Source: Rubrivivax sp.
GTDB lineage: Bacteria; Pseudomonadota; Gammaproteobacteria; Burkholderiales; Burkholderiaceae_C
Reading direction: 5' to 3'
Assembly (NCBI GenBank): GCA_016789955.1
Contig: JAEUPB010000012.1
Span: 1 to 42,493, forward strand
Length of the DNA: 42,493 nucleotides
Of this stretch, positions 17,794 through 42,493 are shown piece after piece. Under the pieces are notes generated by a model. That model saw only the letters and a list, made by a program, of their open reading frames with translations. It made no database searches and was not told where the DNA came from. A program made the position numbers and the translations under genes. Position 1 is the first letter of the stretch. Each line of letters begins with the position of its first letter.

Positions 17794-17890
17794 CAAGTGC
17801 GGTGTGAAGTGATCGATGCCGGGTGGCGGGCACCCCCGGACACTGCGCCCGTCTCCAACCCCAAACCTGCCGACCACCCCGAGGGAGCCC

Positions 17891-23135: not shown

Positions 23136-23159
23136 GCCCTTCGATCCGGAGCCCCCACG

Positions 23160-23669
23160 ATGAACATCTCGCTGATCCACCTGCTGTCCATCGCCACCGT
23201 GGCGTGGTTCACCGCCGCGCCCGCCCTGGCCGACGGCGGCCGCGCGATGCCGCCAACCGTGCCGCCGGCCTACGTGCAGGAATGCGGCTCCTGCCACGCG
23301 GCCTATCCGCCCGGCATGCTGCCGGCGCGCTCGTGGCAGCGCGTGATGAACGGCCTGGATCGCCACTACGGCAGCGATGCGTCGCTGGACGCCCCCACGG
23401 CGCGGCAGCTCGGCGACTGGCTGCAGCAGCACGCCGGCACCTGGAAGCGCGTGGCCGAGGAGCCGCCGCAGGACCGCCTGACGCGATCGGCGTGGTTCGA
23501 GCGCAAGCACCGCAAGGTCGAGCCGGCGGTGTGGCAGCTGCCGAGCGTGCAGAGCGCGGCCAACTGCGCCGCCTGCCACACCGGCACCGGGCAGGGCCGC
23601 TACGACGACCACGGGCTGCGCATGCCCGCCGGGCTGTCGTTGCGGCAGCGCCGGGCCTGGTTCGATTGA
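23160..23669 (+). CDS. Diheme cytochrome c (DHC)
   Basis: A 169-residue periplasmic diheme cytochrome c. A signal peptide (1-24) precedes heme site 1 (C42-G-S-C45-H46 in VQECGSCHAAYP) and heme site 2 (C136-A-A-C139-H140 in AANCAACHTGTG). Length, motif spacing and the phrase ECGSCHAAYPPGMLPARSW match the DHC family. In Rhodobacter and Shewanella, DHC is a redox partner of SHP and takes electrons from a membrane cytochrome b. CGGAG just upstream of the ATG is a good ribosome binding site, and the gene is 24 bases behind shp. Confidence 0.92.
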   Translation: MNISLIHLLSIATVAWFTAAPALADGGRAMPPTVPPAYVQECGSCHAAYPPGMLPARSWQRVMNGLDRHYGSDASLDAPTARQLGDWLQQHAGTWKRVAEEPPQDRLTRSAWFERKHRKVEPAVWQLPSVQSAANCAACHTGTGQGRYDDHGLRMPAGLSLRQRRAWFD

Positions 23670-27411: not shown

Positions 27412-28260
27412 GTGAGCAACAGCGCCGCCGCCGACACCGTCGAGCGCCTGGCCGCCGCGCTGCGCGGCCGCCCGCTGCCGCGGGTGCGCGCGCTGCACCT
27501 GCCGCCCACGCCGTGGACGGGCACCAAGGACGGCGAGTTCTGCGCACTCGAGCTCGACGACGGATCGCTCGGCGTGAGCTACGTGCTGCTCGAAGACACG
27601 CTGGCCGGGCTGGCCGCCCGGCACCCGCACGGCGATGCGCTGGCCGGCGACGACCCGATGGCGTGGGCGCGCTGCTGGGCCGACGCGTCGGCGCCGCCGC
27701 TGCGGCGCACGATCGGCTACGCCGCGGTGAACGCGCTGACGCGCCACCTGCACGACCGTGCCGGGTACGTGCCGCCCACGGCGCCCGACTCGATCGGCGG
27801 CCTCGACCCGCGGCCCGGAGAGACGATCGGCATGGTGGGCTACTTCCCGCCGCTGGTGCGGCAGGTCACGGCGCGCGGGGCTCGGCTCGTGGTGGTGGAA
27901 CTGCGCGCCGACCTGGCCGGCGCGCACGACGGCTTCCGCGTCACGCTGGACCCGGCCGCGCTGCGCGAGTGCAGCGCCGTGCTGATGACCAGCACCGTGC
28001 TGCTGAACGACACGCTGGACGTGCTGCTCGCGTTCTGCCGCGGCGCGCGCGCGGTGGCGATGGTGGGGCCGGGTGCTTCGTGTCTGCCCGACGCGCTGTT
28101 CGAGCGCGGCGTGAGCTGCCTGGCCGGCGTGTGGATCGAGCACGGCGCGGCCTTCGTGCAGGCGCTGCGCGACGGTGCCCCCTGGGGCACGCACGTGCGC
28201 AAGGTGGCGATCCGGCGCGACGCGACGGGAGCCGCTCAGCCCGGTGCCGCCGCCTCGTAG
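27412..28260 (+). CDS. DUF364-domain protein (putative heavy-metal chelation family)
   Basis: A 282-residue cytoplasmic protein with an N-terminal DUF4213-like part (GVSYVLLEDTLAGL; RRTIGYAAVNALTRHL) and a C-terminal DUF364 Rossmann-like part (ETIGMVGYFPPLVRQV; CSAVLMTSTVLLNDTLDVLL; VAMVGPGASCLPDALFERGV). The family is annotated as a putative metal chelation or enolase-fold-associated protein, but its biochemical role is not established. The start is GTG at 27412 with AGGAG five bases upstream. It is 36 bases behind marR in the same direction and may be cotranscribed. Its 3' end overlaps the convergent diguanylate cyclase gene by 25 bases. Confidence 0.75.
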   Translation: MSNSAAADTVERLAAALRGRPLPRVRALHLPPTPWTGTKDGEFCALELDDGSLGVSYVLLEDTLAGLAARHPHGDALAGDDPMAWARCWADASAPPLRRTIGYAAVNALTRHLHDRAGYVPPTAPDSIGGLDPRPGETIGMVGYFPPLVRQVTARGARLVVVELRADLAGAHDGFRVTLDPAALRECSAVLMTSTVLLNDTLDVLLAFCRGARAVAMVGPGASCLPDALFERGVSCLAGVWIEHGAAFVQALRDGAPWGTHVRKVAIRRDATGAAQPGAAAS

Positions 28261-29186
28261 AAAGCGTAGCCGTCACGGCGGCGCTTGGCACGGTACATCG
28301 CCGCGTCGGCGTTGCGCAGCAGCGTGTCGGCATGGTCGCCGTGGTCGGGGTGCAGGGCGATCCCGATGCTGGCGCGCACCGAGAGCTCGACGTGGCCCAC
28401 GCGCATCGGCGCGGCGACGCTGCGGCACAGCGAGTCGGCCAGTTGGGCGACGCGGGCGGCGGCTTGCGCCGGCGGCTGCAATCCGGCGATCAACAGCGCG
28501 AACTCGTCACCGCCCTGGCGGCTCACCAGGTCGCCCGCGCGCACGGCGTGCAGCAGGCGGGCCGCGACGATCTTCAGCACCTCGTCCCCGGCGCAGTGTC
28601 CGTGGGCGTCGTTGACCGACTTCATGCCGTCCAGGTCGACGTACATCACGCCCGCCAGCGGCCTCGCGCCGCGAGTGGGTTCGCCGTCGACCGGCCACCG
28701 CAGCGCAGCATCGAGTTGCTCGCGAAAGTGACTGCGGTTGGGCAGCGACGTGAGGCCGTCATGCAGCGCCCGATGCTGAGCCAGCCGCGCCTGCTCGCGC
28801 GTCGACTCCAGTTCCCGCTGCAGCTGCGCGAGCCGCTCCTGCGCATCCGTGGCGACGGCCTTCCACTGCGCGCGCTGCAGCCGCTCGCGCGACAGCAGCG
28901 CCTGCAGCTGCCCCAGGGCGCGGGTGCATTCCAGCACGCCGCTGCGCACGTCGCCGGGGCCCGGCTCGGCGCGCACCCCGCTCACGAGCGCGCGCAGGCG
29001 GCCCTCGACGGCGTCCAGCAGCACGGCACCGTCGGCGAGGGTGCGGATAGCGAGCCGCCCGGCCGGGGCGGTGGGCGACGTTTCGTCCGTCGCGACGGCG
29101 CCGGGCTCCACGGGAGACATGGCCGGCATGTGCGTGGTGCGCCGGGTGGCGCGGGTCGGAGCGGGCTTGTTCAGGGCGTGGATCAT
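28236..29186 (-). CDS. Soluble diguanylate cyclase (GGDEF)
   Basis: A 316-residue cytoplasmic enzyme that makes cyclic di-GMP from two GTP. The catalytic motif is intact as GGDEF at residues 225-229. An RxxD inhibitory site (Arg216 to Asp219, RAGD) stands five residues before it, so product feedback is likely. Residues 1-100 match no known sensor by eye; a coiled coil (about 100-140, RLAQLQRELESTREQARL) leads into the GGDEF domain and could mediate dimerisation. There is no membrane segment. ATG 29186 is 16 bases after the stop of the flavin-fold gene. It is the third gene of a stress-related operon with the hibernation factor. Confidence 0.88.
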   Translation of the reverse strand: MIHALNKPAPTRATRRTTHMPAMSPVEPGAVATDETSPTAPAGRLAIRTLADGAVLLDAVEGRLRALVSGVRAEPGPGDVRSGVLECTRALGQLQALLSRERLQRAQWKAVATDAQERLAQLQRELESTREQARLAQHRALHDGLTSLPNRSHFREQLDAALRWPVDGEPTRGARPLAGVMYVDLDGMKSVNDAHGHCAGDEVLKIVAARLLHAVRAGDLVSRQGGDEFALLIAGLQPPAQAAARVAQLADSLCRSVAAPMRVGHVELSVRASIGIALHPDHGDHADTLLRNADAAMYRAKRRRDGYAFYEAAAPG

Positions 29187-29202
29187 CTGGAAGTCCCGTG
29201 CA

Positions 29203-29685
29203 TCAGGTCCGCGTTGCGGCGGACGATCCCTCATCGCCAGCCGGCTGCACCGGTTCCGCGACGAACAGGCGCGTCATGGCGTGGTGCGCGGCGTCCCAAC
29301 GGTCGGCGCACGCGGGTGTCAGGCACAACAGCGTCAGGTCGGCCGAGCCGGAGCCGTCGGCTGCCCAGGGCCGTGCGAAAGGCATCCACAGACTCTCGAG
29401 GCGGGCGGGGTCCGTGACGATGCGGCCGTGACCGGACACCGAGATGTACACGTCGGCCGTCGAGTCGACGAAACCGGCGTTCAGCGCAGCCACGTCGTCC
29501 GGAGGCTGCAAGCCCTTGCGCGTGGTGAACCACAGGTCGCCAGCGGCATCCATCTCGAGCGCCGACATCGGCTCGCTGACCAGCGTGCCGCGCGCTTCGG
29601 CCCGGGTGCACATCGCCACCGTGAACGGCTCGATCAGCCTGCCCAGCAGCGCGTGGCCGTCGCGGGCCTGCTCCTGGATCTTCAC
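29203..29685 (-). CDS. Pyridoxamine 5'-phosphate oxidase-like general stress protein 26
   Basis: A 160-residue split-barrel flavin-binding-fold protein of the general stress protein 26 group. Recognisable parts are LIEPFTVAMCTRAEARGTLV, GDLWFTTRKGLQ, DVYISVSGHGRIV and a C-terminal segment DLTLLCLTPACADRWDA, which is typical of the group. Members bind FMN or F420 or have lost the cofactor, so catalytic activity is uncertain. The start is GTG at 29685. It lies between the hibernation factor (23 bases upstream) and the diguanylate cyclase, suggesting a common stress or stationary-phase operon. Confidence 0.8.
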   Translation of the reverse strand: MKIQEQARDGHALLGRLIEPFTVAMCTRAEARGTLVSEPMSALEMDAAGDLWFTTRKGLQPPDDVAALNAGFVDSTADVYISVSGHGRIVTDPARLESLWMPFARPWAADGSGSADLTLLCLTPACADRWDAAHHAMTRLFVAEPVQPAGDEGSSAATRT

Positions 29686-30183: not shown

Positions 30184-30441
30184 TCAGATGCGGTGGCTGT
30201 GCCCGGTGTAGCTCGCGTCGGATCCCGGCTCGTGGCGTCCGGACAGGGGCGGCAGCATGAGATTGCCCCGCCATCCGCACCCGCCGCAGCGGTAGCGGCG
30301 CAGCGGCAGCAGGATCAGTGCGCCGAAGAGTCGGTCGAGGAGGCGGCGGTGCACACGCCAGACGAGGCCTGCGCATCGGGGGCAAGATCTCGGGGGCGCG
30401 AGCGTACGGCCGCGCAGTGTTGGCGCAGCGAGGGTGATCAT
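30184..30441 (-). CDS. Small zinc-ribbon protein, 85 residues
   Basis: A basic small protein with two cysteine pairs, C20-P-R-C23 and C52-G-G-C55, spaced like a zinc ribbon, separated by a moderately hydrophobic stretch (LLDRLFGALILLPLRRYR). It could be a membrane-associated zinc-binding protein; I know of no function. The frame is a plausible gene because both Cys pairs and the CGWRG motif recur in hypothetical proteins of this type. The ribosome binding site is weak. It stands alone between the hibernation factor promoter region and the divergent sensor kinase. The 259 bases from here to 30701 hold no other gene I can support. Confidence 0.55.
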   Translation of the reverse strand: MITLAAPTLRGRTLAPPRSCPRCAGLVWRVHRRLLDRLFGALILLPLRRYRCGGCGWRGNLMLPPLSGRHEPGSDASYTGHSHRI

Positions 30442-30700
30442 GCCCCGGGTTCTACGCCGCGCCCGTGGGGAGCGTCGGTTCGGTGCCGCACGCGGCGCGG
30501 GCGCATCCGCCTACGCCGCGCGCACCGATGCCACGCGGTGCGCGCGGCGCCGATGCGATGATTGCCGCGCGTCGGAATGCGGCGCCGAGGTCAACGATGC
30601 GCTCTTCCACCGCCCTGGATGGCGGACTCTCGCGGCCGGTCGGGCCGGCCTGCATGCCGCGGCAGCGCGGCACCGAACCGTCCGCGGGAGGTCGGTCCCC

Positions 30701-32203
30701 GTGAGCCGTGCAGATATCGCGCCCGCGCGCGGATGGTCGATCCGCGGGCGCATGCTGGCGGTGGTCGTGACCATCGCCGCGCTGTCCTGGCTCGTCGGCG
30801 GTCTGGCCGCCTTCGGGGCCGAGGCCTACGGCGAGGCGCGGGCGCGCGATGCGCGCCTCGTACACCTGGCCGAGGCATTGGCGGCGTTGTCGGAGCACGA
30901 GCTGGCCGAGATCGCGGCCGAGCGCGACGGGCCGCTGGAGCAGATCGAATCGCACTTCGAGCGCGACACCCATGGCGACCGCTACCGCTTCCAGGTGTGG
31001 CGCGCCGGCGGCGCGATGCTGATGCGCAGCCGCCACGCGCCGCCCGACCAGCCCCTGGTGGCCTCGCGCCAGCCGGGGCACGCGGACGGGTCGATCGACG
31101 GCCGGCGGCTGCGCACCTACCTGCTGCGCAGCACCGCCGCGCTGGCTCCCGGGTACACGCCGGGGATGTCCGACGCATCCGGGCCGGCCGCCTCTCCTGC
31201 AACGCCCTCCCGTTCCGCGACCATCGAGATCCACGTGGCCGAGCGCGTCGAACGCGACGTGGCGGCGCTGGCCACGCTCGGCGGCGGCCTGCTGGCCGGG
31301 CTGCTGCTCACGGGGGCCGGCGTGGCCGCGCTGGCGGTGTGGGTGGTGGTGCGTGCGTTGCGGCCGGTCGCGCAGGTCCGCGAGGCCCTGCTGCACCGGG
31401 ACCCTTCGGACACCGCGCCGCTGGCCTTGACCGACGTGCCGCGCGAGCTGCAGCCGATGGTGGCCGCACTCGACGGCCTGATCGAGCGCATGGCCGAGCG
31501 CGTCTCGCACGAGCGCGGCTTCACGGCGCTGGCGGCGCACGAGCTGCGCACGCCGCTGGCCGCGCTGAAGCTGCGCGCGCAGGTGGCGCTGCGGGAGGCC
31601 GACGGCGAACGCCGCGCGCAGCAGCTCGCGGCCGTGCTGCCGCTGGTCGACCGCTGCAGCCACCTGATCGACCAGCTGCTGGCGCTGGCCCGGCTGGAGC
31701 AGGACGGCGCCCGCGATGCGCCGCAGCGGCTGGACCTGCAGGCGATCGTCGACGAGCTGCTGCACGACGCCGCGCCGCTGGCCGCCGAGCGCGGCCTGCG
31801 GGTGGACGTGGCGCTGGATGCCGCGGAGCTGCACGGCCGGCCGATGGCGGTGCGGCTGCTGCTGGCCAACCTGTGCTCCAACGCGCTGCGCCACGCGCGC
31901 GACGGCGGCCGGGTGCGGTTGTCCAGCCGGCTCGAAGGCTCGCGGCTGGTGCTGGAGGTCGAGGACGACGGGCCGGGCATCGCGCCGGAGCATCGCGCGC
32001 GCGCCTTCGAACGTTTCGTCAAGGTCGGCAGTGGCGGCCCGGGCGGCGGCAGCGGGCTCGGCCTGTCGATCGTGCGCGGCGCGGCCGACGCCCACGGCGC
32101 GCAGGTCACGCTGCTGGAATCACCGCTGGGGGGCCTGCGTGCGCAGGTCAGCTTTCCAGCGCCTGCGCCGGCCCCAGCCGATAGCCACGCCCCCGCACCG
32201 TGA
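30701..32203 (+). CDS. Sensor histidine kinase, TctE/QseC-like
   Basis: A 500-residue inner-membrane kinase with segment 1 at about 18-38 (MLAVVVTIAALSWLVGGLAAF) and segment 2 at about 185-215, around a periplasmic sensor. HisKA has His280 in AAHELRTPLAALKL, followed by the N box LLANLCSNALRHAR, G1 DDGPGIAPEHR and G2 GSGLGLSIV. Start GTG 30701 is supported by GGGAGG at 30686-30691; the open frame reaches back to 30434 but without membrane or domain content. The gene faces the response regulator gene at 32148-32825, and their 3' ends overlap by 56 bases, an uncommon layout for a cognate pair. It probably regulates the multiheme cytochrome operon. Confidence 0.85.
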   Translation: MSRADIAPARGWSIRGRMLAVVVTIAALSWLVGGLAAFGAEAYGEARARDARLVHLAEALAALSEHELAEIAAERDGPLEQIESHFERDTHGDRYRFQVWRAGGAMLMRSRHAPPDQPLVASRQPGHADGSIDGRRLRTYLLRSTAALAPGYTPGMSDASGPAASPATPSRSATIEIHVAERVERDVAALATLGGGLLAGLLLTGAGVAALAVWVVVRALRPVAQVREALLHRDPSDTAPLALTDVPRELQPMVAALDGLIERMAERVSHERGFTALAAHELRTPLAALKLRAQVALREADGERRAQQLAAVLPLVDRCSHLIDQLLALARLEQDGARDAPQRLDLQAIVDELLHDAAPLAAERGLRVDVALDAAELHGRPMAVRLLLANLCSNALRHARDGGRVRLSSRLEGSRLVLEVEDDGPGIAPEHRARAFERFVKVGSGGPGGGSGLGLSIVRGAADAHGAQVTLLESPLGGLRAQVSFPAPAPAPADSHAPAP

Positions 32204-32825
32204 CGATCAGCTCCGGCGCGATCGAGCGCCGCAGGTGGTGCACGTAGACCTCGATGGTGTTGCTGTCGATGCCCTCGGCGCGGCCGTACAGCGCGGATTC
32301 GAGCTGTGCCCGCGTCAGCGTCTGCGCCGGGTTGCGCAGGAACTGCTCCAGCACCCAGCGCTCGCGCTCGCGCATCGGGATGCGGCGGCCTTTCCACGTC
32401 ACCACGCCCTGGCCGGTGTCCACGCGCAGCGCGCCGTGCTCGAGCACCGTGTGCTCGGCCGACGGGTTCGCCCGCCGCGCCACCGCGCGCAGCCGCGCGG
32501 CCAGCTCGCCCACGTCGACGGGCTTGACGAGGTAGTCGTCGGCGCCGAGGTCGAGCAGGTCGATGCGGTCGCTGCGCTGGCCGCGTGCGGAGATCACGAT
32601 CACCGGCGTGCCGTCGCGCCGCCGGCGCAGCTCGCGCAGCAGCCGCTCGCCGTCGGTGTCGGGCAGCGTCAGGTCCAGCAGCACGGCGTCGACGCGGTGC
32701 GCCAGCAGCGTCGCCTCGAAGGCCTTGCCATCGCGCTGCCAGGTCACCTCGTGGCCGTCCTGCGCCAGCGCGTCTCGCAGCGCCGCGCCGAGGTCGGGGT
32801 CGTCCTCGACCAGCAGGAGCTTCAT
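32148..32825 (-). CDS. OmpR-family response regulator (multiheme cytochrome locus)
   Basis: A 225-residue response regulator. The receiver has VEDDPD, phosphoacceptor Asp51 in VLLDLTLPDTDG and the YLVKPVD lysine; the C-terminal winged helix has IPMRERERWVLEQFLRNP, DSNTIEVYVHHLRRSI and VRGRGYRLGP. AAGGGG precedes the ATG. It is the last gene of the minus-strand series that begins with the multiheme cytochrome, 58 bases behind the ferredoxin-FAD oxidoreductase. The facing kinase overlaps its 3' end by 56 bases and is the likely partner. It may autoregulate the electron-conduit operon; its promoter lies outside the window. Confidence 0.92.
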   Translation of the reverse strand: MKLLLVEDDPDLGAALRDALAQDGHEVTWQRDGKAFEATLLAHRVDAVLLDLTLPDTDGERLLRELRRRRDGTPVIVISARGQRSDRIDLLDLGADDYLVKPVDVGELAARLRAVARRANPSAEHTVLEHGALRVDTGQGVVTWKGRRIPMRERERWVLEQFLRNPAQTLTRAQLESALYGRAEGIDSNTIEVYVHHLRRSIAPELIVTVRGRGYRLGPAQALES

Positions 32826-32883
32826 CGGACGCCCCTTCGCACTGCGTGCTCCGGGATGAGCGCTTGGGAGCGGCCCGGCGCGC

Positions 32884-34200
32884 TCATGCGGGCAACCCGT
32901 GGTGCGTCTGGAAGCGGATGCCGACCTTGCGCAGCAACGGCATCGGCAGCTCGCCGCCGGCGCAGACGATGACGTCGTCGTTGGGCAGCGCTTCGGTGTG
33001 CCCGTCGTTCTCGATCTGCACCGCGTCGGCATCGATGCGGCGCACCTGCGTGCCGAGCAGCACCCGCAGCCGTCCGGCGGCCTGCGCTTCCTGCACCGCG
33101 ACGCGGTTCTTGGCCTTCACGCGCGAGAACGCGTCGCCGCGGTAGGACAGCGTCACCTGCGTGCCCGCCTCGGCGCAAAGCGCCAGCGCGGCTTCGAGCG
33201 CGCTGTCGCCGCCGCCCACCACCAGCACGCGGCGGCCGCGGTACTGCGAGGGGTCGATGAGCCGGTACACGACCTTGGGCGTGTCCTCGCCGGGCACCTC
33301 GAGCTTGCGCGGCGTGCCTCGGCGGCCCATCGCCAGCAGCACGCTGCGGGTGCGGTAGCGGTTGCGCTGCGTGTGCACGACGAAGCCGTCGCCGTCGGCC
33401 TCGATGTGCTGCAGGCACTCGCGGAACTCGATGCGCAGGCCGGTCTTGCGCACGATGTCGTTCCAGAACTCGAGCAGCTTCTCCTTGGCCACCTCGCCGA
33501 AGCGCACGGTGCCCACCACCGCGAGCTTGACGGGCGCCGTCATCGCGATCTTGGCGCGCGGGTAGTGGAACACCGCGCCCCCCAGCGAGTCTTCCTGCTC
33601 CAGCAGCCGGTAGCGCAGCCCGTGCTCGATGCAGGCCAGACCCGCCGACAGCCCGGCCGGCCCGCAGCCGACGATCACCACGTCGAGGTCCCAGCCGGTG
33701 CCGCTGCGCTTGCGCACGTGCTCGATGGCCTGCCGGCCCTGCTCGGCGGCCTTGCGGATCAGGCCCATGCCGCCCAGCTCGCCGGCGATGTACACGCCGG
33801 GCACGTTGCTCTCGAAGGCCGGCGTGACGTCGGGGATGTCGATGCCGCGTCGCTCGGTGCCGAAGACGAGCTGGATCGCGTCGAACGCGCAGGCGGACTG
33901 GCAGGCCCCGTGGCCGATGCAGGCCGAGCCGTTGATCAGCACCGCCTTGCCGCCGACGATGCCCAGGGCGCCTTCAGGGCAGGCGCTGACGCACGAGCCC
34001 GAGCCGATGCAGGCCAGCGGGTTGACCACCGGGTGCAGTGACGGCGGCTCGGCCAGCCCTGCCTCCAGCGACTGCTGCATCTCGGCGGCGTACGCCCGCT
34101 GCCGGCGCTGCCGCCAGCGCAGGTACAAGCCGAGGGCCAGCAGCAGCACGCAGCCGTACATCACGGGATGGAGCCAGCTGGCGAGGGTGTCGCCGTTCAT
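32884..34200 (-). CDS. Membrane-anchored ferredoxin-FAD/NAD(P) oxidoreductase
   Basis: A 438-residue fusion: one N-terminal membrane segment (about 10-27), two ferredoxin-type motifs, and a pyridine nucleotide-disulfide oxidoreductase-like domain with two dinucleotide sites (VIVGCGPAGLSAGL and VLVVGGGDSALEAAL). Motif 1 is C64-I-G-S67-G-S-C70-V-S-A-C74-P and motif 2 is C94-I-G-H97-G-A-C100-Q-S-A-C104. In both, the second cysteine of CxxCxxCxxxC is replaced, by Ser and His, so [3Fe-4S] or unusual clusters are expected. The flavin domain lacks a redox-active CxxC pair. Anchored to the membrane, it could pass electrons between NAD(P)H or quinone and the periplasmic cytochrome system. GGAG precedes the ATG; it is 36 bases behind ccmI. 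Confidence 0.82.
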   Translation of the reverse strand: MNGDTLASWLHPVMYGCVLLLALGLYLRWRQRRQRAYAAEMQQSLEAGLAEPPSLHPVVNPLACIGSGSCVSACPEGALGIVGGKAVLINGSACIGHGACQSACAFDAIQLVFGTERRGIDIPDVTPAFESNVPGVYIAGELGGMGLIRKAAEQGRQAIEHVRKRSGTGWDLDVVIVGCGPAGLSAGLACIEHGLRYRLLEQEDSLGGAVFHYPRAKIAMTAPVKLAVVGTVRFGEVAKEKLLEFWNDIVRKTGLRIEFRECLQHIEADGDGFVVHTQRNRYRTRSVLLAMGRRGTPRKLEVPGEDTPKVVYRLIDPSQYRGRRVLVVGGGDSALEAALALCAEAGTQVTLSYRGDAFSRVKAKNRVAVQEAQAAGRLRVLLGTQVRRIDADAVQIENDGHTEALPNDDVIVCAGGELPMPLLRKVGIRFQTHHGLPA

Positions 34201-34236
34201 GGCTGCTCCGCTCTTGCAACGGGCCGCACGGCGAGG

Positions 34237-35565
34237 TCAGCGGCCGACGGTCTGGTCGATGAGCACGGCCACGCCGGTGGCGCCCGGCACCACCGGTGCC
34301 GACAGGCCCTGCAGGTCGCCGGGCTGCGGCATCGCCTGCCCGTCCTTGCTGATGCGCGCGCCGACGACCACCTGGCGCTGGCCCGAGAGCTTCGCAGCGG
34401 GGCTCATCGCATGGCTGTCGTCCAGCGTGTAGCGCAGCGGCAGGTCCGCCACGCGATGGCGGCGGATGGCCACCGGCATGCGGCTGCCGTCGGCCGGGCG
34501 GGCGTAGACGAACAGCGTGTCGTCGGGCGACGCCTGCGCCTTCAGCGCCGGGGCCAGCGTGATCGTCCCGGTGATCGATGCACCGGCCGCGGCAGCGGCG
34601 CCCGTCGCGGGAGCGGTGGTGCCCTCGCGCGCCGTGGGCGCGGCGGCTGGCAGCGGCGGCAGCCCGGCCAGTTCGCGGGCCTCGTCGATCGCGCCCTGCA
34701 CGCCGCGGGCGATCGGATGGTCGGCCGGCGCGACGCTCTTCAGCCGCTCCCAGTGCTTCAGCGCCGTGGCGTAGTCCTTGCGCTCGAAGGCCTCGGTGCC
34801 CGCCAGCGAGAGCGCCTTCACGTTGTCGGGGTCCACCGCCAGGGCCCGCTTGACCAGCGCGATCGGCTCGCCGGACAGGCTGCGCTGCTGCGTCATCGCC
34901 AGCGCATCGGCGTAGTCGGCCAGCAGCACCGGGTCGTCGCCGCGCAGCGCCGCGGCCTTGCGGAACGCGGGCACCGCCTGGTCGTGGCGGCCGGTCACCG
35001 CGTAGGTGCGGGCCAGCATCGCCCAGCCGTTGTAGTCGTCGGGCTGCTGCGCGAGCCGCGCGACGAGCTTGTCGGTGATGCCGGCGATCTGGTCAGCGCC
35101 CAGTTCGTGCGGGGCCTGGGTGCCCGCGGCGGCCGCAGGCTCGTCGGCCACGCCGGAGGCGGGGGTGTCGTTGCCCAGCCACCAGCTGCCGGCGGCGACC
35201 ACGGCCACCACGGCGGCCGAGACCGCCAGGGCGAGCTTCGGCGGCCGGCGCAGCATCGGTGCCGGCGGCACCGAAACCGGTGCGGCTGCGGGCGGCTCGG
35301 CCATCACGTGGTCGAGGATCCTGCGCTCGATCGCGGCGCGCGCGCTGGCATGGGCCTCGGCGCCCAGCGTGCCTTGCTCGTGCAGGCGGTCGAGTTCGCG
35401 CAACTGCTCGCGGTAGCGCTCGACGGGCGAGGCGTCGCCGACGGTGGAGAGGGCCCGCGTGTCGGCGCCCGGAGCGGCGGCACGCCGGGCCGGCCACCAC
35501 AGCGGGCGCGTCAGTACGACAAGGGTGGTCAGCGCCATCACGGCGGCCAGGGTCACGAAGAGCAT
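34237..35565 (-). CDS. ccmI: Cytochrome c biogenesis protein CcmI
   Basis: A 442-residue CcmI protein, which holds apocytochrome c for heme attachment on the periplasmic side of the inner membrane. Two membrane segments (about 3-24 and 110-131) enclose a cytoplasmic loop with the leucine-zipper-like ERYREQLRELDRLHEQGTLG. TPR repeats follow (about 160-290, GWAMLARTYAVTGRHDQAV; VKALSLAGTEAFERKDYATA), then a C-terminal beta domain with ITGTITLAPALKAQ and LFVYARPADGSRMPVAIRR. It is 15 bases behind ccmF. The usual ccmG and ccmH genes between ccmF and ccmI are absent, so this may be a dedicated maturation pair for the neighbouring multiheme cytochrome. Confidence 0.92.
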   Translation of the reverse strand: MLFVTLAAVMALTTLVVLTRPLWWPARRAAAPGADTRALSTVGDASPVERYREQLRELDRLHEQGTLGAEAHASARAAIERRILDHVMAEPPAAAPVSVPPAPMLRRPPKLALAVSAAVVAVVAAGSWWLGNDTPASGVADEPAAAAGTQAPHELGADQIAGITDKLVARLAQQPDDYNGWAMLARTYAVTGRHDQAVPAFRKAAALRGDDPVLLADYADALAMTQQRSLSGEPIALVKRALAVDPDNVKALSLAGTEAFERKDYATALKHWERLKSVAPADHPIARGVQGAIDEARELAGLPPLPAAAPTAREGTTAPATGAAAAAGASITGTITLAPALKAQASPDDTLFVYARPADGSRMPVAIRRHRVADLPLRYTLDDSHAMSPAAKLSGQRQVVVGARISKDGQAMPQPGDLQGLSAPVVPGATGVAVLIDQTVGR

Positions 35566-35580
35566 CGGCAGGTTCTCGTT

Positions 35581-37662
35581 CTAGGTCGCGGGCGTGCCCG
35601 GCGCGGGGGCCAGCATCGCGGCTCCGGCGACGGGTGCGGGGGTCGGGCCGTCGGCGGCCGGGGCCGGGGCGGGCAGCGCCTCGTCTTCGGCGGATGCGGG
35701 GGCGCCCGGTGGCGCCTCCTGCGCGGCCGTGGCGGCACGGCGGTAGCGGCGGTCGGTGGCGGCCAGCGCGCCGCCGAGCGCCATCAGCACGCATCCGCCC
35801 CAGATCCAGTCGATGAATGGCTTCACGTACAGGCGCAGCGTCCAGTCGCGCTCGCCCACCGGTTCGCCCAGCGACACGTACAGGTCGCCCAGCAGGCCGG
35901 GTGCGATGGCCGCTTCGGTCATCGGGTTCTGCTGCACGCGGTAGACGCGCTTCTCGGGCTGCAGCCGCGTGACGACGCGGCCTTCGCGCTCGACCACCAC
36001 CTCGCCACGCACGCCCTCGTAGTTCGGGCCGGTGATGTCGCGCAGCGCGGCCAGGCGGAACGTGAGCCCGGCCAGTTCGGCGCTGCCGCCCACCGTCATG
36101 CGCACGTCGCGCTCGACCTCGTAGCTGCGCACGCAGGTCACGCCGATGACGAAGGCTGCCACGCCCAGGTGCGCCAGCATCATGCCGGCAGTGGCACGCG
36201 GCAGCCGCCGCAGGCCGGCCCAGCCCCTCAGCGGCTGGCCTGCCTGGCGCCAGCCGGCGACGTCGGTGACGATGCTGGCGATGATCCAGAACGCGACCAC
36301 GAGTCCGAGCGTCGTGCCGGTCATCAGCCGCCCGGTGGCCGCCGCGATGCCGGCCCCGGCCACCAGCGCCACCGCGGCCGCCACGGCGACGCGCCGGCCC
36401 AGCGCCAGCGGGTCGGCCTGCTTCCAGGCCGCCAGCGGCCCGACGCCCAGCAGCAGCAGCACCGGCAGCATCAGCGGCACGAACACCGTGTCGAAGTAGG
36501 GCGGCCCCACCGAGATCTTGCCCAGCCCCAGCGCGTCGAGCACCAGCGGATACAGCGTGCCCAGCAGCACGCTGCCCAGCGCCGCGACGAGCATCGCGTT
36601 GTTGGCCAGCAGCAGCGATTCGCGCGACACCAGCGCGAAGCGCGCGCCGAGCCCGATGCGCGGCGCACGCCAGGCGTACAGGGCCAGCGACACGCCCACC
36701 ACCAGCCCGAGCAGCACGAGGATGAAGAGGCCGCGGCGCGGGTCGGTGGCGAAGGCGTGCACCGACGACAGCACGCCCGAGCGCACGAGGAAGGTGCCCA
36801 GCAGCGACAGCGCGAAGGCGACGATCGCCAGCAGCACCGTCCAGCTCTTGAAGGCGCCGCGCTTCTCGGTCACGGCCAGCGAGTGCAGCAGCGCGGTGCC
36901 GGCCAGCCACGGCATGAACGACGCGTTCTCCACCGGGTCCCAGAACCACCAGCCGCCCCAGCCCAGCTCGTAGTAGGCCCAGCCGCTGCCCAGCGCGATG
37001 CCCAGCGTCAGGAAGCACCAAGCGGCGGTGGTCCACGGGCGCGTCCAGCGCGCCCAGCGCTGGTCGAGGTCGCCGCCGATCAGCGCCGCCACCGCGAACG
37101 CGAAGGCCACCGAGAAGCCGACGTAGCCCATGTAGAGCATCGGCGGGTGGAACACCATGCCCGGGTCCTGCAGCAGCGGGTTCAGGTCGCGGCCGTCGGG
37201 TGCCGCGGGCACGAGCCTCTCGAACGGGTTCGACGTGGCCAGGATGAAGGCCAGCAGCCCGACGCTGATCGCGCCCATCACGCCGAGGATGCGCGCCAGG
37301 ACCGGCGCGGGCAGCCGCCGCCCGAACCGTTCCACCGCCAGCGTCCACAGCGCCAGCATCAGCTGCCACAGCAGCATCGAGCCCTCGTGGCCGCCCCACA
37401 CCGCGGCCACGCGGTACGCCAGCGGCAGCGCGCGGTTCGAATTGCTCGCCACGTACATCAGCGAGAAGTCGTGCCGCACGAAGGCCGCGGTGAGCAGCCC
37501 GAAGGCCAGCACCACCATCAGCGCCTGCGCCTGCGCGGCGCTGCCGCCCAGCGCCATCCAGCTGTCGCGGTCGCGCGCGGCGCCGACCATCGGCAGCGTG
37601 GCCTGCACCAGCGCCACGGCGAGCGCCAGCAGCAGCGCGAACTGTCCGAGCGAGCCGATCAT
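35581..37662 (-). CDS. ccmF: Heme lyase CcmF/NrfE
   Basis: A 693-residue polytopic inner-membrane protein of the CcmF/NrfE family, which attaches heme to CxxCH motifs of apocytochromes in the periplasm. The WWD heme-handling signature is at about 235-253 (GWGGWWFWDPVENASFMPWL). The four conserved histidines seen in CcmF are present: His172 (FHPPMLY), His260 (LLHSLAV), His302 (SSVHAFATDP) and His498 (MMLAHLGVA). A Pro/Ala-rich tail follows the last membrane segment. GGGAG precedes the ATG. It stands between the outer-membrane barrel gene (21 bases) and ccmI, so it is probably dedicated to this locus rather than to general cytochrome c maturation. Confidence 0.93.
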   Translation of the reverse strand: MIGSLGQFALLLALAVALVQATLPMVGAARDRDSWMALGGSAAQAQALMVVLAFGLLTAAFVRHDFSLMYVASNSNRALPLAYRVAAVWGGHEGSMLLWQLMLALWTLAVERFGRRLPAPVLARILGVMGAISVGLLAFILATSNPFERLVPAAPDGRDLNPLLQDPGMVFHPPMLYMGYVGFSVAFAFAVAALIGGDLDQRWARWTRPWTTAAWCFLTLGIALGSGWAYYELGWGGWWFWDPVENASFMPWLAGTALLHSLAVTEKRGAFKSWTVLLAIVAFALSLLGTFLVRSGVLSSVHAFATDPRRGLFILVLLGLVVGVSLALYAWRAPRIGLGARFALVSRESLLLANNAMLVAALGSVLLGTLYPLVLDALGLGKISVGPPYFDTVFVPLMLPVLLLLGVGPLAAWKQADPLALGRRVAVAAAVALVAGAGIAAATGRLMTGTTLGLVVAFWIIASIVTDVAGWRQAGQPLRGWAGLRRLPRATAGMMLAHLGVAAFVIGVTCVRSYEVERDVRMTVGGSAELAGLTFRLAALRDITGPNYEGVRGEVVVEREGRVVTRLQPEKRVYRVQQNPMTEAAIAPGLLGDLYVSLGEPVGERDWTLRLYVKPFIDWIWGGCVLMALGGALAATDRRYRRAATAAQEAPPGAPASAEDEALPAPAPAADGPTPAPVAGAAMLAPAPGTPAT

Positions 37663-37683
37663 CCGGCGGCTCCCACACGGGCA

Positions 37684-39978
37684 TCAGAACTCAAAGCGGG
37701 CTCCCAGCGAGTAGTTGACGCGGTGCGTGGACTCGTCGGTCGTCGACACCGTGTCGGTGAGTTCCTGCCGCCGGCTGGCGCGGCCGATCTCGTAGGTGAG
37801 GTTGGACTCGATCGCCCAGCGCTGCCAGCCGCGGTAGGTGAGGCGCAGCCCCGGCGTCCAGCGCCGGCTGGTGCTGCCGTCGCCGTTGCGGTCGCGGTAG
37901 TACTGCAGCGAAGGCTCCACTTGCCAGACGTCGGCCCATAGCGACGAATTGTTGTACCCGAGCAGGGTGCCCGTCAGCGTCGGGCCGCTGATCCGGCTGG
38001 CCGAGATCACGTGGGTGTCGCGCGTGGAATACAGGTTGAGCCCGATCAACTGCGCACTGGCCGTGATGATGTTGCCGGTGGCCGGGCGCCCGTTCTCGAA
38101 GCCGGCCACCTCGGGCACGGCCGGGATCGCGCCGGTGTTGGTGAGCTGCAGGCTGCCCGCCACCTGCCAGTTCTTCGTGACGGGCCTGGTCACGCCCACC
38201 TGGGCCTTCGTGATCATCGGCGTGATGCGCTTGATCTGGTCGCGCAGCGCGGCCACGGTGGTGCCGGCCAGGCGGTCGGCGATGCGCGTGTACAGCACGC
38301 CGGGGCGCGACGGATCCTCGAAGGTCAGCGCGTTGCCCAGGCCCAGCGTGGCCAGCGCGCGGCGGTCGTACAGCGCGTTGTAGACCGTGTTGTCGGCCGT
38401 CACGACGGTGGCCTGCACGGTGGCCACGTTCATCGCCTGGATCAGCACGTCGCGGTCGAACTGCGCGAACACCGTGGTGCCGCCGTTGAAGTAGCGCAGG
38501 TCCAGCCCGACGGCGCGGCGGTCGGTGTAGCCGTCGATGCGCTGCTCGATCATCCACAGCCCGCCGCCCAGGCCGCCGGGCAGCCGGTCGGCATCGATCG
38601 ACACCCCGCCGAACGTGCGCTTGGACTCGAAGAAGCGGTCGGTGGGCTCGCCCATCACGGCGCCGAGCTTGACGCGCGGACTTGCGTTCCAGCTGCCCTT
38701 GATGCCGTCGAAGCGGCTCATCACGCCGCCGCCGGTGGGCGACTGCCGGCCCAGCCGCACGTTCCACCCGCCGGCGATCGAGCGGTGGTCGAAGTACAGC
38801 GACGACAGCCGGTTCCTGCTCTTGTCGGGGCGGATCTCGTCGCGCGTGTACGAGTCGCGGAAGACGAAGCGCTGCTCGACCTCGCCATTGCGACGACGCC
38901 AGTTCAGGTCGACGTCGGAAAAGATCTGGCGCGAGCGGTCGCTGGTGAGCTGGGCATCGCCCGCCACCTGCGGCAGCCCGGCGATCGGCGAGTCGAGGAA
39001 CTCGCGGCTGCGCACCTGGCCGTTGCCGCGATAGGCCGTGACCGACGCGCTGCCGTTGGTGGTGATCTCGGTCTCGGCGCGTGCCTGCGGGCCCGGTGCC
39101 GGCGCCGCTGCGGCACCGGGCGCCGGCAGTGTGGCCAGCAGCGCGCGCACGCGGTCGCTGCCCTCGCCCTGCGGGAACAGTTGCAGGTAGGTCTCGAGCT
39201 CGGCGCGGGCGCGGGCGGTGTCGCCGGCCTTCAGGTGGGCGCGGCCGACGAGCTCCTGCGCCTCGCGGGTGGAGGAGGTGGGCGGCAGTTCCAGCAGTTC
39301 GTTCAGCCGGTCGACGGCCTCGCCGATGCGGCCGGCCTCCCACGCGACCTTGGCACGGGCGAGCAGGTCGGCGGCCTTCGCTTCGAGCTCGGGCGTGCCG
39401 GCCATGGGCACCGGCGGTGCGGCGGTGGTGGGCGGCACCGTCGCCGTGGCGGGCGCCGGGGCCGGGGCGGCCGCGACCGGTGGTGCCGGCGGGGGTGCGG
39501 GCGGCACGGGCGGCCGCGCCGTCGCGGGGGGTGCCTGCGGCAGCTCCCGTCCGCGGCCGGGCAGCACGATCTCGATGCTGCGGTTGCCGCGCCCGCCACG
39601 CGCGCGCAGCACAACCGGCTCGGCGAATCGCAGCGTGAGGCGGCGCGACTGATCGCCGCGCTCCTTGCGGTCGGGCTCGTCCGTCAGCTCGACCTCGGGC
39701 AGGCCGCGCGTGCGCAGCCGCAGCGCCTGCACCGGCGTGGACAGTCGCGCGTTGGTGGTGGTGAGCAGCGTGTAGATCACCTGCGTCAGGTCGCCCGAGC
39801 GCGTGGACACCGCGCGCTGGAACTGCACCTCGGTGCCGAATCGCACCTGGATCACGGCATCGGCGCCCTCGCGGCGCACCTCCACCTCGTCGATGGCCTG
39901 GGCCTGGGCGGCGACGGAAGCGGCGAGGATCAGCGGGGCGACGAAGGTCGGCGGCAGGGCGGGGCGCAGGGGGTTCAA
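37684..39978 (-). CDS. Outer-membrane beta-barrel protein with periplasmic AMIN-like and TPR parts
   Basis: A 764-residue exported protein. A signal peptide (1-28, ending AAQAQA) is followed by an AMIN-like beta domain (about 29-145) and a Pro/Ala linker (150-192). Helical TPR repeats come next (about 195-285, AKVAWEAGRIGEAVDRLNEL; AGDTARARAELETYLQLFPQ). The C-terminal part (about 310-764) is rich in alternating amphipathic strands and ends RVNYSLGARFEF, with the terminal Phe typical of barrels inserted by BAM. It is a good candidate for the outer-membrane sheath of a porin-cytochrome complex. The only usable start is TTG 39978, as no ATG or GTG lies between the cytochrome stop (same frame) and the signal peptide; no clear ribosome binding site is seen. 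Confidence 0.78.
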   Translation of the reverse strand: MNPLRPALPPTFVAPLILAASVAAQAQAIDEVEVRREGADAVIQVRFGTEVQFQRAVSTRSGDLTQVIYTLLTTTNARLSTPVQALRLRTRGLPEVELTDEPDRKERGDQSRRLTLRFAEPVVLRARGGRGNRSIEIVLPGRGRELPQAPPATARPPVPPAPPPAPPVAAAPAPAPATATVPPTTAAPPVPMAGTPELEAKAADLLARAKVAWEAGRIGEAVDRLNELLELPPTSSTREAQELVGRAHLKAGDTARARAELETYLQLFPQGEGSDRVRALLATLPAPGAAAAPAPGPQARAETEITTNGSASVTAYRGNGQVRSREFLDSPIAGLPQVAGDAQLTSDRSRQIFSDVDLNWRRRNGEVEQRFVFRDSYTRDEIRPDKSRNRLSSLYFDHRSIAGGWNVRLGRQSPTGGGVMSRFDGIKGSWNASPRVKLGAVMGEPTDRFFESKRTFGGVSIDADRLPGGLGGGLWMIEQRIDGYTDRRAVGLDLRYFNGGTTVFAQFDRDVLIQAMNVATVQATVVTADNTVYNALYDRRALATLGLGNALTFEDPSRPGVLYTRIADRLAGTTVAALRDQIKRITPMITKAQVGVTRPVTKNWQVAGSLQLTNTGAIPAVPEVAGFENGRPATGNIITASAQLIGLNLYSTRDTHVISASRISGPTLTGTLLGYNNSSLWADVWQVEPSLQYYRDRNGDGSTSRRWTPGLRLTYRGWQRWAIESNLTYEIGRASRRQELTDTVSTTDESTHRVNYSLGARFEF

Positions 39979-40035
39979 GATGCGATGTCGGCGTTTCGGT
40001 GCGGGTTGGGTGCGTGACGGGCCGGGTCGAGACCG

Positions 40036-42493
40036 TCAGTCCCACTTCGTGTAGGCGGATCCCTTGCTGCCGAGCGGCCGATGGCAGCCCGACTGCGAGC
40101 AGTCGGTGACCCCGGTGCTCCTCTCGTGCGTCAGCGACTTCTTCTCCATGTCGCCGAGGTAGCTGGTGCCGCTCTGGTGGCAGGCCTTGCACCAGCCGGC
40201 GCCGTTGCCCTGGCTGGCGTTGTGGTTCATGCGCATCGACCCCCACGACGTGGTGCTGGTGTGGCAGGCGTTGCAGTCCATCGCCGTGCCGTTCAGCAGC
40301 TGCGACTCGGGGATGTGGTTGGTCGGCTTGGCCAGCGCGTTCACCGACACGTGGGCGCCGCCATGGCACGACTTGCAGGTGCCGCCGGTCACCACCGCGT
40401 GGTTCATGGTCACCGCGGTCTTCCACGAGGCCTGCGAGCGGTGGCACGAGTCGCAGCGCGCGGCGCCGGCCGGGACGGGGATGTGCCCCGCGTTCTTGCC
40501 GGTGGCGGTGGAGCCGTTGTGGCAGGTGTCGCAGGTGCCGGTGCCCACGGCGTTGGCCGGCGAGTGCGTGTAGGAGATCGAAGACCAGGACGTCGTCGAT
40601 TTGTGGCAGGTCTCGCAGCTGCCCGTCACCGTGGCGTGGATCGCGTTCGACGGCTTGCCGACCGCGCTGAGGTAGGCCCCGGTGTGGCAGGTGTAGCAGC
40701 CGGTGGAGACGCTGAAGTTCGCGTGGAAGCGGCCGTTGGACCAGGTCGAGTAGCTGCCCTTGTGGCACGCGTCGCAGTTGGCGCCGGCCGCCACCGGCAC
40801 CGACGCATACGGAACGTGATTCGAGACGCGACCGTCGGCGGGCGGATAGCCGCCGGTGTGGCAGGTGGCGCACTGAGCGGTCACCGGCAGCTGCGAGTGG
40901 TTCCACTTGGTCGGCCGCCAGCCGGTGACCGAGTGGCAGGTGTAGCAGTTGGTGGCACCCACGGGGATGTGGGTGCTCGGCTTGCCGGTGGCGCCGGTGC
41001 CGTTGTGGCAGCTCGCGCAGACGGTGCTGTCGTTGAAGGTGCTGTGGTCGACCCTGGCACCGGACCAGGTCGATGTCGACTTGTGGCAGCTCTCGCAGTT
41101 GCCCGTGACCGTCGCGTGCACCGCGTTCGACGGTTTGCCCACGGCGTTCAGGTACGACCCGGTGTGGCAGGTGTAGCAGCCGGTGGAGACGCTGAAGTTC
41201 GCGTGGAAGCGGCCGTTGGACCAGGTCGAGTAGCTGCCCTTGTGGCACGCATCGCAGTTGGCGCCGGCCGCCACCGGCACGGACGCATACGGAACGTGAT
41301 TCGAGACGCGACCGTCGGCGGGCGGATAGCCGCCGGTGTGGCAGGTGGCGCACTGCGCGGTCACCGGCAGCTGCGTGTGGTTCCACTTCGAGGGCGCCCA
41401 CGTCGTCACCGAGTGGCAGGTGTAGCAGTTGGTCGATCCCGACGGGATGTGCGTGGCCGACTTGCCCGGGGCTGCGGTGCCGTTGTGGCAGCTCGCGCAG
41501 ACGGTGCTGTCGTTGAAGGTGCTGTGGTCCACCTTCGCGCCGGACCAGGTCGATGTCGACTTGTGGCAGCTCTCGCAGTTGCCGGTGACGGTGGCGTGCA
41601 CCGCGTTCGACGGCTTGCCCACCGCATTGAGGTACGCGCCCGTGTGGCACGTGTAGCACCCGGCGGAGACGCTGTAGTTCGTGTGGAACCTTCCGTTGGC
41701 CCAGGTGGCGTAGCTCCCCTTGTGGCAGTTGTCGCAGTTCGCGCCCGCGGCCACCGGCACCGAGGCATACGGGATGTGGTTGGACGCCTTGCCGTCGGCG
41801 GGCGGGTAGCCGCCGGTGTGGCAGCTCGCACATTGCGCGGCCACCGGCAGCTGCGTGTGGTTCCACTTCGATGGCGCCCAGGTCGTCACCGAGTGGCAGG
41901 TGTAGCAGTTGGTGGAGCCCGACGGGATATGGGTGGCCGACTTGCCCGTGGCCGCCGTGCCGTTGTGGCAACTGGAGCAGACGGTGGTGTCGTTGAAGGT
42001 CGAGTGGTCGACCTTTGCGCCGGACCAGGTGGTGGTGGACTTGTGGCAGGCCTCGCAGGTGCCGGTGACGGTGGCGTGCACCGCATTCGACGGCTTGCCG
42101 ACGGCGGCCAGGTAGCTGCCGGTGTGGCACGTGAAGCATCCCGCCGAGACGCTGAAGTTCGCGTGGAACTTGCCGGTCGCCCAGGTGGCGTAACTGCCCT
42201 TGTGGCAGGCATCGCAATTGGCGCCTGCGGCGACCGGCACCGATGCATAGGGAACGTGATTCGCCACGCGCCCATCGGCCGGCGGGTAGCCCCCGGTGTG
42301 GCAGGTGGCGCACTGCGCGGTCACCGGCAGCTGCGTGTGGTTCCACTTCGAGGGCGCCCACGTCGTCACCGAGTGGCAGGTGTAGCAGTTGGTCGAGCCC
42401 GACGGGATGTGGGTTGCCGACTTGCCGGGGGCTGCGGTGCCGTTGTGGCAGCTCGAGCAGACGGTGCTGTCGTTGAAGGTCGAGTGGTCGACC
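40036..42493 (-). CDS. Giant repeat-built multiheme cytochrome c (N-terminus beyond window)
   Basis: The frame is open from 40036 to the right edge, at least 819 residues; the start and signal peptide lie outside. By eye I count 29 CXXCH heme-attachment motifs plus one CX4CH (CSQSGCH, near 40081-40101) at the C-terminus, about 30 hemes in the visible part. Most lie in a 160-residue unit with six motifs in fixed order (CATCH, CDACH, CYTCH, CESCH, CASCH, CYTCH), repeated four times. The last 150 residues are unique (CDTCH, CDSCH, CKSCH, CNACH, CKACH, CX4CH). Such heme density forms a molecular wire in extracellular electron transfer proteins. It heads the visible operon with an outer-membrane barrel, CcmF and CcmI. 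Internal GTG codons at repeat positions are not starts. Confidence 0.93.
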   Translation of the reverse strand, partial: VDHSTFNDSTVCSSCHNGTAAPGKSATHIPSGSTNCYTCHSVTTWAPSKWNHTQLPVTAQCATCHTGGYPPADGRVANHVPYASVPVAAGANCDACHKGSYATWATGKFHANFSVSAGCFTCHTGSYLAAVGKPSNAVHATVTGTCEACHKSTTTWSGAKVDHSTFNDTTVCSSCHNGTAATGKSATHIPSGSTNCYTCHSVTTWAPSKWNHTQLPVAAQCASCHTGGYPPADGKASNHIPYASVPVAAGANCDNCHKGSYATWANGRFHTNYSVSAGCYTCHTGAYLNAVGKPSNAVHATVTGNCESCHKSTSTWSGAKVDHSTFNDSTVCASCHNGTAAPGKSATHIPSGSTNCYTCHSVTTWAPSKWNHTQLPVTAQCATCHTGGYPPADGRVSNHVPYASVPVAAGANCDACHKGSYSTWSNGRFHANFSVSTGCYTCHTGSYLNAVGKPSNAVHATVTGNCESCHKSTSTWSGARVDHSTFNDSTVCASCHNGTGATGKPSTHIPVGATNCYTCHSVTGWRPTKWNHSQLPVTAQCATCHTGGYPPADGRVSNHVPYASVPVAAGANCDACHKGSYSTWSNGRFHANFSVSTGCYTCHTGAYLSAVGKPSNAIHATVTGSCETCHKSTTSWSSISYTHSPANAVGTGTCDTCHNGSTATGKNAGHIPVPAGAARCDSCHRSQASWKTAVTMNHAVVTGGTCKSCHGGAHVSVNALAKPTNHIPESQLLNGTAMDCNACHTSTTSWGSMRMNHNASQGNGAGWCKACHQSGTSYLGDMEKKSLTHERSTGVTDCSQSGCHRPLGSKGSAYTKWD
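40574..42493 (-). repeat. Four tandem 480-bp coding repeats in the multiheme gene
   Basis: The sequence repeats with a period of exactly 480 bases, for example GCAGGTGGCG-type heme codons at 40861, 41341, 41821 (diverged) and 42301, so the stretch from 40574 to the edge is four units. Units differ in age: 40681-40860 and 41161-41340 differ at only two of 180 bases, whereas other pairs differ more. The array continues beyond the window. The leftmost unit fades into unique sequence near 40574. Confidence 0.9.

Follow-up and report, generated by a model that had tools for sequence, protein, structure and literature searches.

How electrons would cross the cell envelope at a multiheme cytochrome locus of a Rubrivivax sp., and which protein would handle them on the cell side, is the question raised by a 42,493-base stretch of DNA that forms an entire contig (C27; hereafter the window) of a genome that is 79.6% complete in 116 contigs. 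An earlier note on this DNA described a putative multiheme electron conduit that has maturation genes of its own and is coupled to a flavin/iron-sulfur module in the inner membrane, and suggested a different architecture, one without a periplasmic cytochrome. We found that the locus is real and larger than first stated, and that its architecture is a known one. What is new is a membrane-anchored ferredoxin-FAD protein (FdR) as a near-constant partner of this conduit type, together with an extra heme lyase in this branch.

The seeming absence of an MtrA-like periplasmic cytochrome is an effect of a contig break. The window ends inside the gene of a giant cytochrome, whose C-terminal 818 amino acids lie at 40036-42492 on the minus strand. 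The last 127 bases (42367-42493) recur exactly, as the reverse complement, at the end of contig C40, and this 127-mer has two exact copies only in the whole assembly, one at each of these ends. A length of 127 is a common assembler word length, and the ends of C27 and C40 therefore probably meet at an unresolved repeat. Across the join the reading frame is unbroken and the heme spacing (26-27-26-24-25-32) keeps its register, with the remainder of the gene on C40 (L005, 12657-16957). The repeat itself is a 480-base unit encoding 160 amino acids with six hemes; four copies lie in the window (40583-42493, minus strand), and the units at residues 1082-1881, which span the join, are each 84-91% identical to the next. 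Upstream on C40 we observed a 688-amino-acid cytochrome with 27 CXXCH motifs, the stop codon of which overlaps the start of the giant cytochrome, and a 296-amino-acid membrane protein (IMP). The joined order is IMP, 27-heme cytochrome, giant cytochrome, porin, ccmF, ccmI, FdR, response regulator and a facing kinase. The cytochrome start and further genes, which the earlier note had suggested looking for to the right of position 42493, were thus found through the overlap, and we rejected the idea of a conduit lacking a periplasmic cytochrome.

We compared this gene set with the published description of PCC3. In He et al. 2017 (PMC5566968), PCC3 consists of a porin, two very heme-rich cytochromes, one extracellular and one periplasmic, with repeats and 22-39 amino acids per heme, and an IMP with two WX3HX13H motifs, an SGXXG motif and five transmembrane helices. 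The porin, two large multiheme cytochromes, IMP motifs, repeats and low number of amino acids per heme are the same here. This locus adds FdR, a further ccmF-ccmI set and a pair of two-component genes, and its largest cytochrome has at least 80 hemes compared to a reported maximum of 85 and median of 34. The words ferredoxin, biogenesis, maturation, histidine kinase and two-component do not occur in the main text of that paper. The IMP on C40 carries WX3HX13H at positions 89 and 271 and SGXXG at 130; among 35 aligned IMPs, own included, both WX3HX13H motifs are present in 34 and SGXXG in all 35. In the IMP model, helices 28-43, 52-68, 86-108 and 115-143 together with the last part of 234-295 would be compatible with five transmembrane helices, and simple hydropathy resolves fewer. 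By gene set, IMP motifs, amino acids per heme and repeats, the locus fits the PCC3 type, in place of the different architecture first suggested. Later papers (PMC10734462, PMC12442390, PMC13386937) treat PCC3 as a candidate conduit of untested function. When the IMP was searched against a plasmid collection, one weak match was obtained (NC_018749.1, 81515-82123, from Emticicia oligotrophica of another phylum; 28% identity, E 3e-15); the porin had no match in that collection.

The locus shares with MtrCAB, MtoAB and PioAB the use of a porin and multiheme cytochromes as an outer-membrane conduit, and the cytochrome resembles the DmsE-type and OmcA/MtrC profiles, at scores below the cut-offs (143 vs 192 bits and 76 vs 209 bits). 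A relative of those systems whose decaheme subunit has been fused or lost is nevertheless very improbable, given the 27-heme periplasmic cytochrome gene and the PCC3 IMP. The locus differs in having no decaheme MtrA/PioA-type gene, and the MtrB/PioB family is absent from the families matched by 63 porin homologues. We rejected filing it under MtrCAB on these two grounds.

To place FdR in context we used two samples. The first consisted of 41 related genomes, own included, of which eight had a porin match; one match was marginal (G006, E 7e-4), so that seven genomes were counted as positive and 34 as negative. The second was a scan of a named-genome collection, from which the best 79 of 172 stretches encoding a relative were taken; these include records of Rubrivivax, Leptothrix discophora, Sphaerotilus, Ideonella, Roseateles, Caenimonas, Thiobacillus, Methylotenera, Gallionella and Sideroxydans. 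Five genomes occur in both samples (G013=L031, G011=L038, G008=L047, G014=L079, G018=L099). Porin identity is 47% for Leptothrix discophora and 27-28% for the Sideroxydans records, all of them named records rather than the 2017 PCC3 reference sequences. The conduit genes stay together in homologous loci, in several arrangements, as the earlier note had proposed to check.

Full-length FdR is encoded in six of the seven PCC3-positive relatives and in none of the 34 negative ones (Fisher 1.6e-6, kinship ignored). Besides the own copy, the homologues in porin-positive relatives are full length at 62-67% identity; the 34 negative genomes gave merely weak partial flavoprotein matches. The same was seen in the wider sample, in which 68 of the 79 loci could be covered and 67 of these 68 PCC3 genomes contain full-length FdR: 36 in the DNA at the locus, 29 of 30 genomes searched whole (52-70% identity), and two (L079, L099) through the search of the relatives' genomes. 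FdR is thus a nearly constant partner of PCC3, which is newly seen. Its gene does not keep one place. Across 36 loci it is divergent beside the IMP gene in 13, directly after the porin in six, after ccmI on the same strand in 13, and on the opposite strand downstream in four, so that the link to PCC3 outlives rearrangement. In the main-text passages searched on PCC3 with ferredoxin or with CcmF, FdR is not tied to PCC3 and no link to CcmF is made.

The FdR of the window (32884-34200, minus strand) has one N-terminal membrane helix, two iron-sulfur motifs and an FAD/NAD(P) domain. Both motifs are variants, C64xxSxxCxxxCP and C94xxHxxCxxxC. The second cysteine of the first motif is replaced by serine in 33 of 37 sequences and by alanine in four, and that of the second by histidine in all 37. 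Ferredoxins with such motifs held [3Fe-4S] clusters in the work of Child et al. (PMC6237146), with potentials that were more positive with histidine and lower with serine. In all 37 sequences the N-terminal helix has more lysine and arginine after it than before, and by the positive-inside rule the redox domains would lie in the cytoplasm.

The FAD/NAD(P) domain is of the thioredoxin-reductase type, and this fold, together with the 13 of 36 loci in which the FdR gene lies behind ccmI in the same orientation, could indicate that it supplies reductant for heme or thiols during cytochrome maturation and stands outside the electron path. We regard this as unlikely. The flavin part lacks CxxC (0 of 37 sequences), the gene lies beside IMP in another 13 of the 36 loci, including the Gallionellaceae-type L085, L106 and L108 that have no ccm genes in the downstream DNA examined, and the 34 relatives without PCC3 are also without FdR.

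Next to the porin gene lie the maturation genes themselves. Family matches and motifs bore out the earlier note for CcmF, CcmI, the ferredoxin-FAD oxidoreductase and the OmpR-type regulator. CcmF (35581-37662, minus strand) scores 740 bits against the TIGR00353 cut-off of 569, and CcmI (34237-35565, minus strand) scores 51 bits against the TIGR03142 cut-off of 29 and matches PF23892 and PF23914. We surveyed 53 loci for which 8.5 kb or more of downstream DNA was available and found a near-complete ccm operon in 22, a partial set with ccmF in four, ccmI only in nine, and none in 18. Thirteen of the 15 near-complete-operon loci whose genome was searched come from genomes with a single full-length CcmF; with no second copy, PCC3 in those 13 merely sits before the general ccm operon. 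We therefore rejected the notion that every PCC3 has its own maturation genes. They vary among loci and are not a defining part of PCC3.

In the Rubrivivax branch the situation differs. The own genome has three full-length CcmF, with a complete ccm operon on C37 (L110) and a third ccmF-G-H on C92, and the CcmF of the window forms a clade (100/99) with the PCC3-linked CcmF of L031, L056 and L098. All four genomes with a CcmF of this type have a complete ccm operon elsewhere. The separate clade and the general operon elsewhere support the view that an additional heme lyase has been retained alongside the conduit. The arrangement resembles dedicated lyases of the NrfEFG type, in which a CcmF/NrfE-type protein and a TPR subunit are encoded beside the client cytochromes and the general Ccm system elsewhere. 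It differs in that the clients here carry ordinary CXXCH, with no CXXCK in either cytochrome, and in that there is no ccmH/nrfF gene at the locus. A lineage of this kind points to a possible advantage of a separate heme lyase for proteins with very many hemes. Elsewhere in the own genome, the third ccmF, ccmG and ccmH (L111; C92, 17-19 kb) adjoin open reading frames with three and four CXXCH, which perhaps represents another client-specific lyase.

Taken together, the two contigs probably carry the parts of one PCC3-type conduit with which a Rubrivivax-like betaproteobacterium would move electrons across its envelope. It would work as follows. At the cytoplasmic face FdR would pass electrons between a soluble carrier, most likely NAD(P)H, its FAD and two iron-sulfur centres, and IMP would take them across the inner membrane. 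From there the 27-heme cytochrome would span the periplasm and reach into the porin, where the beta and TPR domains may hold it, and the giant cytochrome would transport charge outside the cell to an outside partner. CcmF-CcmI would be a heme lyase set kept for these heme-heavy cytochromes beside the general Ccm system, and the kinase and regulator presumably control expression. The placement of one cytochrome outside the cell and the other in the periplasm, and the contacts among the proteins, are predictions from sequence. The proposal that the PCC3 IMP is a two-heme cytochrome b comes from the literature.

Several observations weigh against this picture. The C27/C40 join runs through a repeat, and the number of repeat units may be higher than counted; the IMP has no Pfam family match and no solved look-alike (best Foldseek E 0.57), so that its reading as a cytochrome b depends on motif reasoning in the literature; G024 is porin-positive and lacks a full-length FdR, as does the genome of L062, which was searched whole; and ccmF-ccmI of the window come without the ccmH that the three sister loci (L031, L056, L098) have. 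For the inner-membrane end, the genes kept together and the genome-by-genome co-occurrence of FdR support the conduit with a flavin/iron-sulfur module that the earlier note described. FdR suggests a link to a soluble, NAD(P)H-like carrier on the cytoplasmic side of IMP; this link, electron transfer between FdR and IMP, and the direction of flow are inferences.

That direction can be read in two ways. PCC3 may be an uptake conduit that takes electrons from Fe(II), minerals or perhaps Mn and passes them through IMP to the quinone pool, with FdR as a downstream accessory that might, for instance, serve NAD(P) supply or protect against stress. We consider this a serious possibility, somewhat short of an even chance. 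Uptake is the published hypothesis (PMC5566968, PMC10734462), and PCC3, present in many bacteria, has been considered an iron oxidase candidate, with donor, acceptor and direction untested (PMC12442390). Porin homologues are indeed present in Gallionella, Sideroxydans and Leptothrix records. However, FdR is nearly constant, often beside IMP and apparently cytoplasm-facing, which suggests a direct partner, and many carriers (Ideonella, Roseateles and Caenimonas) are not known as iron oxidisers. Export from NAD(P)H would be favoured by the potentials and the membrane voltage, and uptake would not. More tentatively, PCC3 could be a machine of five parts rather than four, with FdR as its missing cytoplasmic end: an NAD(P)H-coupled transmembrane exporter that feeds electrons into a giant extracellular heme wire. 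Its main task in many bacteria would be to discharge reducing power outward, and not to oxidise Fe(II) and deliver the electrons to the quinone pool, and the Rubrivivax branch would in addition have retained a private heme lyase. A near-constant flavoprotein partner provides an assayable handle on the cell side of the wire, and FdR may show where PCC3 electrons start or end.

To characterize the cytochromes, we counted heme motifs over the simplest join. This gives a giant cytochrome of 2210 amino acids with 80 CXXCH (29 in the window and 53 on C40, two of them shared), so that it would hold at least 80 hemes, and further units may be missing from the assembly. The 29 motifs of the window fragment agree with the approximately 30 noted earlier and lie far above the 2000 shuffles of the same residues (mean 0.34, maximum 4). 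Amino acids per heme number 27.6 in the giant and 25.5 in the 27-heme cytochrome. Total histidines (164 and 56) are about twice the heme number, and homologues have a median of 2.02 and 2.04 histidines per heme, so that bis-histidine hemes would fit in both proteins, each CXXCH being a predicted attachment site. Judged by eye, the N-terminal leaders of the porin and of the two cytochromes resemble export signals. A PDB sequence search with the cytochrome gave no match. Intact giants, each on a single contig with a closed reading frame, were found in G014 (92 hemes, 3460 amino acids), Rubrivivax sp. A210 (L113, 91 hemes) and the Burkholderiales metagenome-assembled genome REEB380 (L114, 105 hemes), although assemblies may miscount repeats. 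These genes are material for the study of long protein wires. Their repeat is of another kind (G014 L027/L023, L113, L114), with seven hemes spaced 28-29-34-36-40-44-56, compared to six per 160 amino acids in the window. The giants of Methanoperedenaceae likewise have very many hemes per protein and differ in being archaeal; with 113 hemes in one of them according to PMC7082337, we rejected a record heme count for the 105-heme relative.

The porin (764 amino acids; 37684-39978, minus strand) was modelled with AlphaFold from 63 sequences (mean predicted local distance difference test score, pLDDT, 84; predicted TM-score, pTM, 0.62). The model has a 9-strand beta domain at 29-139, TPR helices at 196-283 and a predicted 22-strand barrel at 304-763. 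This agrees with the porin-like barrel with TPR described earlier. The AMIN-like part did not hold up, as none of the 24 Pfam families that the 63 homologues match at E 0.1 is AMIN; the 9-strand domain has no family assignment. TPR_9 was matched in 49 of the 63 and the peptidoglycan-binding SPOR domain in 13, which hints at peptidoglycan contact in those porins. The best 50 Foldseek rows consist of barrels of a general kind, ushers and BcsC, a TPR-barrel protein, with a TM-score by query length of at most 0.30 throughout.

The two-component pair closes the locus. The OmpR-type response regulator (225 amino acids; 32148-32825, minus strand; PF00072, PF00486) is faced by a sensor histidine kinase (30434-32203, plus strand; HisKA/HATPase, PF00512 and PF02518), whose true start is probably inside the open reading frame, and the 3' ends of the two genes overlap by about 55 bases. 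The facing kinase of the earlier note is real; its gene lies almost wholly to the left of the interval 32148-42493 to which it had been assigned. Regulator clusters occur in 17 and kinase clusters in 12 of the 79 loci, a set that includes many short ones. It is plausible that the locus has its own regulation. A GGDEF diguanylate cyclase is encoded at 28236-29234 (minus strand), within a few kb of the kinase of the conduit.

Two further observations concern the remainder of the window. A cytochrome b561-type open reading frame (PF01292; 22598-24466, plus strand) overlaps a short one in another frame with two CXXCH (23136-23669, plus strand), and these may be a second small redox pair. The open reading frame at 17816-19906 (plus strand) has a calpain-family cysteine protease domain (PF00648), a family that is uncommon in bacteria.

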